NCBI GenBank assembly: GCA_021732845.1
Contig: JAKFUF010000015.1
Span: 1-64,000 of the forward strand
Length of the DNA stretch: 64,000 bases
Direction: 5' to 3'
Source: Planctomycetaceae bacterium
GTDB lineage: Bacteria; Planctomycetota; Planctomycetia; Planctomycetales; Planctomycetaceae
Shown: one piece after another, positions 8,290 to 64,000 of the stretch
How positions within the stretch are numbered: the stretch's first letter is position 1
How the letters are laid out: each line of letters opens with the position of its first letter
Made by a program: the position numbers and the translations under genes
Notes under the pieces: generated by a model
What the model was told of the DNA's origin: nothing
What the model saw: the letters and a program-made list of their open reading frames with translations, nothing else
Databases searched by the model: none

Positions 8290-8322
8290 AAAAGAAAAAC
8301 CCTCAGGCGAGACCTGAGGGTT
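8290..8322 (-). terminator. Probable cimA attenuator (intrinsic terminator in the 5' leader)
   Basis: On the minus strand a perfect 10-bp stem (AACCCTCAGG/CCTGAGGGTT, loop TCTCG) is followed by TTTTTCTTTT. It lies 48 bases before the cimA start. Upstream, the segment ACCTGAGG (8350-8357, containing the TGA of the leader ORF) is exactly complementary over 8 bases to CCTCAGGT in the terminator's 5' arm and so could act as an antiterminator. Alternatively it is the plain terminator of an uncertain small gene at 8336-8640. Confidence 0.65.
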
Positions 8323-8351: not shown

Positions 8352-8402
8352 TCAGGTTTGCGGGTGTCTTGTCTGAATTTGAATGATGCAGGGAGCAGAC
8401 AT
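8352..8402 (-). CDS. Putative isoleucine-rich leader peptide of cimA
   Basis: 16-codon ORF, MSAPCIIQIQTRHPQT, with three Ile codons (ATC ATT CAA ATT) in the middle. It starts about 32 bases after the predicted transcription start and its stop codon lies inside the antiterminator segment. A ribosome stalled on the Ile codons would leave that segment free; one reaching the stop would cover it and let the terminator form. The ribosome-binding site is weak, so this rests on layout and on the parallel with leuA. Confidence 0.5.
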   Translation of the reverse strand: MSAPCIIQIQTRHPQT

Positions 8403-57506: not shown

Positions 57507-59054
57507 TCACACCCCGCGCTGGTCCTCGCCGCGGGGCGGCGCGACATTGGACGCCGCCTTGTTCAGGGCCTTGAGGTACGCCTGGGCGCTGGCCTCGATG
57601 ATGTCGGTGCTGGCGGCACGGCCGTGCCAGGTGTGGCCTTCATGGGCAATCTCGACCAGCACCTCGCCCTGGGCATCCTTGTCGGCCGAGACGCTCCGCA
57701 CCTGGTAGTTCGTCAGGCGGGCCTTGATCCCCGTGATCCGCTCCAATGTCTGAAACACGGCGTCGACCGGGCCGTCCCCCGTGGCGGCATCACACTTCAC
57801 AGGCTCTTCGCCATGCTGCAACTGGATCGTGGCGGTGGGGATCGCGCCGGTGCCGGACGAGATGTGCAGGCTGACCAGCTTCCAGCGGTCCTCAACAATG
57901 CCGAAGCGGTTGTCAATGATCGCCGTGATGTCGGCGTCGTAAACGTCCTTCTTCTTGTCGGCGAGGGCGATGAAGTCGTTGAACACCTGCTCAAACATTT
58001 TGTCTTCGAGCGTGAAGCCGAGTTGTGTCACCCGGTCCCGGAACGCATGGCGGCCGCTGTGCTTGCCGAGCACCAGGTTTGTGCCCTGGAAGCCGACATC
58101 TTCGGGACGCATGATCTCGTACGTCGTCCGTTCCTGCAGCATCCCGTGCTGATGAATGCCAGCCTCATGAGCAAAGGCGTTCTGCCCGACAATCGCCTTG
58201 TTCCGCTGCACGAGCATCCCCGTGATCCGCGAGACGAGCCGGCTGGTGGTGAACAACTTCTGGGTATTGATGCCGGTGGTCAGACCGAAATAGTCCTGCC
58301 GCGTGCGGAGGGCCATGACCACCTCTTCGAGCGCCGCATTGCCGGCACGCTCACCCAGGCCGTTGATGGTGCATTCCACCTGGCGCGCCCCGGCTTCGCA
58401 CGCCGCCAGGCTGTTGGCGACCGCCATGCCCAAATCGTTGTGGCAGTGCGAGCTGATGACCGCCTGGTTGATGTTGGGGACATTCTCCTTCAGGCACTTG
58501 ATGACGTTGAAGTATTGAGTGGGCGTCGCATAGCCGACGGTGTCCGGAATGTTGACCGTCGTGGCTCCCGCCGTGATCGCCTTCTCCACCACCTCGCAGA
58601 GGAAATCGAGTTCGGTCCGGGCGGCATCTTCCGGTGAGAACTCGACGTCTTCGCAGAACCCCTTGGCTCGCTGGACCGATTCAATTGTCCGCCGGACGAT
58701 CTCCGGCTTGTCCATTTTCAGTTTGAACTGCCGGTGGATGGAACTGGTGGCGAGGAACACATGAATCCGCTTTTTGGCGGCATCCTGAAGGGCGGCGCCT
58801 GCCCGGTCGATGTCGTCATCACGGCTGCGGGCGAGGCCGCAGATCACCGCGCGGTCGCCGAACTGACGAGCCACGGCCTGCACCGCTTCGAAGTCGCCCG
58901 GTGAAGCGATGGGGAACCCGGCTTCGATGACGTCCACGCCCAGATCCACCAGCGCCTGCGCGACCTCCAGCTTCTCGGCAGTGTTCATGCTGCAGCCGGG
59001 GGATTGCTCGCCATCGCGGAGCGTGGTGTCGAAAATGATCACGCGGTTGGACAT
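57507..59054 (-). CDS. leuA: 2-isopropylmalate synthase
   Basis: 515-aa LeuA, which condenses 2-oxoisovalerate with acetyl-CoA in the first committed step of leucine synthesis. [13 protein letters not shown] near residue 7 and [12 protein letters not shown] provide the metal and catalytic residues, [18 protein letters not shown] follows, and the C-terminal allosteric domain includes [14 protein letters not shown]. Size and motifs separate it from cimA at 6665-8242. It is preceded by a Leu-rich leader peptide and terminator, so expression should respond to charged leucyl-tRNA. Confidence 0.97.
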
Positions 59055-59183: not shown

Positions 59184-59217
59184 AAAAAACCCTGAGCCCT
59201 CGGAGAGGGCTCAGGGT
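59184..59217 (-). terminator. leuA attenuator (intrinsic terminator in the 5' leader)
   Basis: On the minus strand an 11-bp stem (CCCTGAGCCCT/AGGGCTCAGGG, arms at 59206-59216 and 59190-59200, loop of 5) is extended by one A-T pair and followed by TTTTTT. It sits 130 bases before leuA. CTTAGG and GGAGA (59247-59258 region, overlapping the leader stop TAG) can pair with CCTGAG and TCTCC of the terminator to form an alternative structure. Confidence 0.82.
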
Positions 59218-59247
59218 GAAAGTTCAAGCAATCAGGCTGGAACGGTC

Positions 59248-59313
59248 CTAAGATCTCCCATGAGGATGGGGGATTAGCTGCAGGGCCAGATTCAGCAGTT
59301 CGAGACGCATCAT
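59248..59313 (-). CDS. Leucine-rich leader peptide of leuA
   Basis: 21-codon ORF, MMRLELLNLALQLIPHPHGR plus Ser, with six Leu codons in ten positions (residues 4-13). GGAG lies five bases before the second ATG. It begins about 22 bases after the predicted transcription start and ends 30 bases before the terminator stem, the geometry of amino-acid-biosynthesis attenuators. Confidence 0.78.
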   Translation of the reverse strand: MMRLELLNLALQLIPHPHGRS

Positions 59314-59341
59314 CACTCCAATTGAATCTTCAATCACCAAT

Positions 59342-59370
59342 ACCATATCGGGATTCGAGGGTGTCGTCAA
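59342..59370 (-). promoter_or_regulatory. Predicted sigma70-type promoter of the leuA leader
   Basis: TTGACG (59365-59370) is 17 bases from TATGGT (59342-59347) on the minus strand. The -35 overlaps the stop codon of the ABC permease gene. Transcription would start near 59335. Confidence 0.65.
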
Positions 59371-62739: not shown

Positions 62740-64000
62740 CCGGAAGGCTCGCGCCCTTCCGCTTCCATTCTGGCGGCACGGCGCAAGCCGTTCGGGTGAG
62801 CCGCTGGGACAAACCGGTTGTTCCATTTGTCTATCGGCGTGGCGGGAGGGCTCTGGTCTCCAGAGCTGCGGGCAACCGACGATTTGGCCTTTTCGAAGGA
62901 ATTCCGAGCGATCTGTGGCTCACCGGAGGGCTCGCGCCCTTCCGCTTTTATTTGAGCCGCTCGGCGCAAGCCGTCGGGTGATGCGCTGGGACAAACCAGT
63001 TGTTTCCATTTGTCAATCGGCGTGGCGGGATGGCTCTGGTCCTCCAGAGCCGCGAACAACCGACGATCCGGCGATTTCGAAGGAATTCCGAGCGATCTGT
63101 GGCTCACCGGAGGGCTCGCGCCCTTCCGCTTTTATTTGAGCGGCACGGCGCAAGCCGTCCGGTGAGCCGCTGGGACAAACCGGTTGTTCCATTCGTCAAT
63201 CGGCGTGGCGGGAGGGCTCTGGTCTCCAGAGCCGCGGGCAACTCGCGAGCCCCACGTCGTCCTCACTCGGGCACCACAAAGTTGCCGAGTCACTCCGTGA
63301 CTCGAACCCGGCCGGAGTGGCTGGGCGACTTTGAGACTCACCGGAGGGCTTGTTCCCTGCCTGTCTGTGAATTGCAAGCCGTCGAGGAAGCCACGATGCG
63401 AGTCACGGAGTGACTCGACTACTTTGTGTCGCCTCTCGCTCCGCGAGAGGACGCGGGCGTGGTCCGGCGCGGACAAACACGGAGGCTCTGGAATCGCGCT
63501 GTCGGCATTGTCGCCAGACGTTCGCGTTCTTTTGCGAAGCAAAAGACGACTTTGTGCCGTTCACTTGTAGCGGCACGGCGCAAGCCGTCCGGTGAGCCGC
63601 TGGGACAAACCGGTTGTTTCCATTCGCCGATCGGCGTGGCGGGAGGGCTTTGGTCCTCCAGAGCCGCGGGCAACTCGCAAGCCTCACGTCGTCCTCACTC
63701 GGGCACCGCAACGTTGCCGAGTCACTCCGTGACTCGATCCCAGTCACGGAGTGACTGGGCGACTTTGAGACTCCCCGGAGGGCTTGTGCCCTGCCGCTCG
63801 CTTTGGAGGGCAAGCCGTCGAGGAAGCCACGATGCGAGTCACGGAGTGACTCGACTACTTTGTGTTGCCTCTCGCTCCGCGAAAGGACGCGAGCGTGGTC
63901 CGGCGAGGACCAACACGGAGACTCTGGATTCAAGCTGTCGGCATTGTCGCCAGACTTTCGCGTTCTGTTGCGGAGACAAAGACGACTTTACGCCATTCAC
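62740..64000 (-). repeat. Mosaic interspersed repeat, right copy (inverted relative to the left)
   Basis: The sequence is the reverse complement of the left-end array and continues past the window. The 19-base CGAGTCAC palindrome occurs at 63286-63304, 63399-63417, 63718-63736 and 63835-63853; matching positions 63399 and 63835 give a 436-base period. GGCTCTGG/CCAGAGCC-type hairpins recur between them. Frames through it are not gene-like. Confidence 0.85.
62742..63240 (-). repeat. Three tandem ~183-bp units at the start of the right array
   Basis: CTCGCGCCCTTCCGC recurs at 62748, 62931 and 63115, spacings of 183 and 184. Each unit has the GCCGCTGGGACAAACC and GGCGTGGCGGGAGGGCTCTG blocks and ends with GAATTCCGAGCGATCTGTGG, except the third, which passes into the longer unit. 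Confidence 0.8.

Follow-up and report, generated by a model that had tools for sequence, protein, structure and literature searches.

The leader of leuA in a Planctomycetaceae genome is, with high probability, a ribosome-mediated transcription attenuator that would respond to charged tRNA-Leu, and comparison with related genomes indicates that planctomycetes of this group very probably sense leucine shortage by way of a stalled ribosome. The window, meaning the whole 64,000-nucleotide stretch of DNA that was analysed, lies on contig 35 of a genome of 9.25 Mb, and its leader features are collected in Table 1. A leader-peptide attenuator at leuA had been proposed in an initial annotation, and comparative sequence supports the proposal, in that the ORF, the helices and the promoter are all conserved. 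The identity of the gene is secure by curated equivalog models, LeuA scoring 775 bits with NF002086 (cut-off 532) and 732 bits with TIGR00973 (cut-off 598.7).

Table 1. Positions of the leuA and cimA leader features within the window.
Feature	Position	Strand	Basis
leuA, 2-isopropylmalate synthase, 515 aa, predicted regulated gene	57507..59054	-	NF002086 and TIGR00973
Promoter: -35 TTGACG 59370-59365, 17 nt, -10 TATGGT 59347-59342	59342..59370	-	sequence and conservation in relatives
Predicted leader peptide ORF, 21 codons, MMRLELLNLALQLIPHPHGRS then stop	59248..59313	-	Leu-rich ORFs at leuA of relatives
Predicted control codons, 6 Leu in codons 4-13: CTC CTG CTG CTG CTG CTA	59275..59304	-	sequence; CTA excess
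Segment 1:2 hairpin CCCAU-CCUC-AUGGG, end of leader ORF	59257..59270	-	z -3.3
Segment 2, antiterminator 5' strand, GGGAGATCTTAGG, covers stop codon	59247..59259	-	pairs with segment 3
Segment 3, terminator 5' arm, common to antiterminator and terminator	59202..59217	-	sequence, covariation, folds
Intrinsic terminator: 13-bp stem 59217-59189, loop TCC, T tail to 59184	59184..59217	-	sequence, covariation
cimA, citramalate synthase, 525 aa	6665..8242	-	TIGR00977, 667 bits (cut-off 450)
Predicted Ile leader ORF before cimA, MSAPCIIQIQTRHPQT then stop	8352..8402	-	Ile-rich leaders in relatives
Putative cimA antiterminator strand ACCTGAGG, over leader stop codon	8350..8357	-	complementary to CCTCAGGT at 8319-8312
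cimA leader terminator AACCCTCAGGTCTCGCCTGAGGGTT with T tail	8298..8322	-	sequence

The promoter hexamers with their 17-nucleotide spacing, the 21-codon frame with six leucines in residues 4 to 13 and an alternative pairing segment over the stop codon of that frame had all been named in the initial annotation, and each is present on the minus strand, the pairing segment being complementary to the 5' arm of the terminator. The annotated terminator and its T tail were likewise found, with the length of the stem, which is perfectly paired, corrected from 11 bp to 13 bp. Leucine occupies codons 4, 6, 7, 9, 11 and 13 of the leader ORF, which has a second in-frame ATG at 59310, and the terminator lies 135-163 nt upstream of leuA. 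The fold of the leader surpasses that of 200 out of 200 dinucleotide shuffles (z -3.19). The arrangement is that of the attenuator class as a whole: an ORF rich in codons of the pathway before a terminator, the terminator before the gene, and the 5' strand of the antiterminator over the stop codon.

In the mechanism proposed here, RNA polymerase would start about 20 nt ahead of the leader ORF with a translating ribosome behind it. Under a shortage of leucyl-tRNA the ribosome would be expected to stall at the leucine codons and cover segment 1; segment 2 could then pair with segment 3, with the result that the 3:4 terminator would not form and leuA would be transcribed. With ample leucyl-tRNA the ribosome would reach the stop codon and mask segment 2, whereupon 3:4 would form and transcription would stop before leuA. 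If the leader is not translated, the 1:2 hairpin in the last leader codons would sequester segment 2, and termination would follow by default. Computed folds in which the ribosome occupies codon 11 or 13, both of them Leu codons, give the antiterminator (-18.7 kcal/mol), those with the ribosome at the leader stop codon give the terminator (-26.4 kcal/mol), and the naked leader RNA folds into hairpin 1:2 plus the terminator; as modelled, these states match the classical logic of amino-acid attenuators. A 1:2-like hairpin (z below -1) is found in 33 of 53 aligned leaders, in varying register.

The helices themselves were assessed by covariation in the alignment of these 53 leaders, with the partner column slid as the control. 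For the terminator, 96.1% of cells are paired and two-sided changes occur at 8 of 11 pairs, with 58 such changes in register compared with at most 16 when slid; a slide of a single column lowers pairing to 52-59%. For the 2:3 antiterminator, 82.5% of cells are paired and two-sided changes, 25 cells in all, are seen at 7 of 10 pairs. No slid register of the antiterminator exceeds 63% paired, and although the slide of +3 yields 33 two-sided cells as against the 25 at register 0, far fewer cells are then paired. Pairing of segments 2 and 3 is better than in shuffles (p<0.05) in 36/53 leaders. The antiterminator of the window is weaker than that of many relatives, consisting of two short helices (CUUAGG:CCUGAG and GGGAG:CUCUC) with an internal loop, and taken alone it reaches p=0.06. 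RNAalifold applied to the leader alignment yields the terminator only, as would be expected when the alternative helix shares the terminator arm. Leaders of the Fuerstiella type have a shorter ORF that ends just before segment 2, and they retain a segment 2, CCTCAGG, that is the complement of CCTGAGG in their own terminators. The compensatory changes that had been suggested as a check are thus found in both the terminator and the antiterminator, and the leucine codons and both hairpins, whose loss among relatives had been named as grounds for doubt, are retained.

The comparison set comprised 85 distinct planctomycete leuA upstreams drawn from whole genomes and named genome contigs; judged by LeuA, the nearest relatives that bear a name are Planctomycetaceae and their neighbours, including Planctomicrobium, Fuerstiella, Gimesia and Thalassoglobus. 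No more than 350 nt upstream of leuA, 74 of the 85 have a short ORF in which five or more of ten codons encode Leu, compared with 5.3% of shuffles; the split is 60/65 in the nearest leuA set and 14/20 in a set mostly from other families of the class. The stricter combination of a Leu ORF with a detectable terminator at the right distance was found in 43/85. A simple scan detects a terminator in 52 of the upstreams, all 43 among them, and finds no hairpin in the other 33 of 85, in part owing to mismatched stems. Only 10 of 60 leader ORFs have a Shine-Dalgarno-like site in front of them. As to the promoter, a single site of the TTGACG-N17-TATGGT type in 4.1 kb, against 0.5 expected, is by itself near chance. 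Immediately upstream of the leader, 31/59 relatives score at least 9/12, compared with 5% of shuffles and with only 2/59 in a control region lying 100 nt farther upstream, and both the position and the form, TTGAC[G/C]-17-TA-type, are kept. These data bear on another reading of the hairpin, namely that it is the terminator of an upstream permease gene and that the ORF is a chance frame with no leader-peptide control, as might be supposed from a permease ORF on the same strand that ends at 59367, just upstream. That reading is exceedingly improbable, given that the conserved promoter sits between the permease gene and the hairpin, that covariation links segment 2 to the terminator arm, and that shuffling what precedes real terminators produces a Leu-rich ORF about 1% of the time (1.3%, 7/520).

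The composition of the leaders is also distinctive. CTA makes up 19.7% of their Leu codons as against 0.3% in leuA genes, and CTT 22.9% as against 6.2%; CTA is absent among the 220 Leu codons of four genes of the window. The excess of CTA may partly reflect a lack of selection for fast codons. Such enrichment in codons seldom used by genes is what would be anticipated if the element mainly sensed a general slowing of translation, or a single Leu isoacceptor, and not leucine supply itself, a possibility that is nonetheless very unlikely in view of the fit between codons and pathway, Leu at leuA and Ile at cimA. Within the same window as leuA, cimA is preceded by a predicted isoleucine attenuator, the leader of which has three Ile in four codons (ATC ATT CAA ATT). 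Because citramalate synthase is the first enzyme of the pyruvate route to isoleucine, the Ile codons of the cimA leader fit the pathway. The putative antiterminator pairing of ACCTGAGG with CCTCAGGT, the latter included in the terminator arm, was read by eye only. An Ile-rich leader with a terminator, identified by the same rule, occurs in 28/40 related cimA upstreams (29/41 including the window), and the Leu test was passed by 0/41 cimA upstreams. ATT accounts for 64% of Ile codons in the leaders of the cimA set and for 28% in genes. Two other observations concern the ends of the window. Positions 62740-64000 hold degenerate direct and inverted repeats with spacings of about 184 and 434 nt and copies up to 95% alike, over which ORFs, probably spurious, run on both strands; at the opposite edge, positions 47-126 of the plus strand match a group II intron domain (RF00029, 54 bits).

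Supply-sensing through leader translation, the reading preferred here, can also be set against direct control of the terminator by a T-box or a riboswitch, in which the leader RNA itself would bind a ligand or a tRNA. The locus has the general outline of such an element, in that its 5' leader, about 280 nt long, contains a switchable terminator and precedes an amino-acid gene. No Rfam T-box (RF00230) or riboswitch match was obtained at gathering or relaxed thresholds, and nearly all of the conservation in the 53-leader alignment falls in the ORF codons, segment 2 and the terminator, so that this alternative can be given almost no weight. Among Rfam leader families, searched at gathering and relaxed thresholds, only chance matches to the terminator hairpin were obtained.

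Within Planctomycetia the predicted leucine attenuator is widespread; its distribution is patchier among the remaining Planctomycetota. A phylum-wide covariance-model search gave full-length matches mainly in the family and class of the window; partial matches elsewhere, mostly to the terminator alone, were left out of the counts. Leu-rich leaders occur in every sampled family of the class but one (f7), represented by the single genome L052, where the ORF scan finds no Leu-rich leader and the covariance model matches over its full length, though weakly. In other Planctomycetota a clear Leu-rich ORF can be read by eye in about 8 of 19 leuA upstreams, with 6/19 passing the strict test; examples from outside the class are GLLLSLVLLLSASGG (L188) and LLGLLLIPSAG (L197), each followed by a stop codon. 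Three distant Planctomycetota (L201, L202 and L203) carry two complete predicted leucine attenuators in tandem within the last 440 nt before leuA, arranged in L203 as MKQIVGNLLLLASLRGAS, stop and terminator, then MSLLSLLLRTPRGAPG, stop and terminator. A leader with terminator was found in 0/73 upstreams of ilvB, hisG and trpE from relatives of the same group, no second copy of the leader was found elsewhere in the genome, and the leuA upstreams sampled from Acidobacteria, Clostridia and one spirochaete lack a comparable Leu leader.

In E. coli, leuL is a short ORF with a run of Leu codons that controls leuA through an antiterminator/terminator switch, and the leu leader uses the rare CUA codon. 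The planctomycete leader resembles enterobacterial leuL (E. coli leuLABCD) in the Leu-codon run within a short ORF, in leuA as target, in mutually exclusive antiterminator and terminator and in rare CUA use; it differs in having segment 2 over the stop codon, in belonging to another phylum and in giving no match to Rfam RF00512 (Leu_leader), either at gathering or up to E=5. With the actinobacterial LEU element it shares a Leu-run leader ORF upstream of leuA (PMC1262725). That element is a pseudoknot in which the Leu run base pairs with the leuA Shine-Dalgarno box (PMC1262725), whereas, going by that description, the planctomycete leader has an intrinsic terminator and a conventional, covarying antiterminator. 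A 2010 genome-wide survey of premature terminators noted that Proteobacteria and Actinobacteria were at that time the only groups with known leader-peptide systems, and extended these to Firmicutes, where the bacillar hisS and hisZ leaders are attenuators of this kind (PMC2965389). For S. aureus, a leucine-rich attenuator peptide in branched-chain synthesis is reported (PMC5794164). Both Firmicute cases are like the planctomycete one in being leader-peptide attenuation outside Proteobacteria and Actinobacteria, with different genes and a different phylum. The initial annotation had known of no published planctomycete example, and in agreement with this no description of a planctomycete attenuator was found in open full-text papers, most subscription papers being outside reach. 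Attenuation itself is an established mechanism; its occurrence in this phylum, the RNA family, cimA as a target and the placing of two units in tandem all appear to be undescribed.

It is somewhat more likely than not that leader-peptide attenuation is old in Planctomycetota, guarding the two branched-chain entry enzymes (leuA through Leu, cimA through Ile) and not ilvB, hisG or trpE, placed in tandem in some lineages and with an origin independent of the proteobacterial, actinobacterial and firmicute systems. The finding yields an RNA family missing from Rfam, and for many planctomycete genomes it allows the regulation of leuA and cimA to be predicted. A textbook mechanism, ribosome-mediated attenuation, would thereby be extended to a phylum with an unusual cell organisation. 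Attenuation requires that transcription and translation be coupled, with the ribosome close behind the polymerase, and because of this need the conserved design of these leaders is indirect evidence for such coupling in planctomycetes, and the planctomycete attenuator offers a direct route to testing it.
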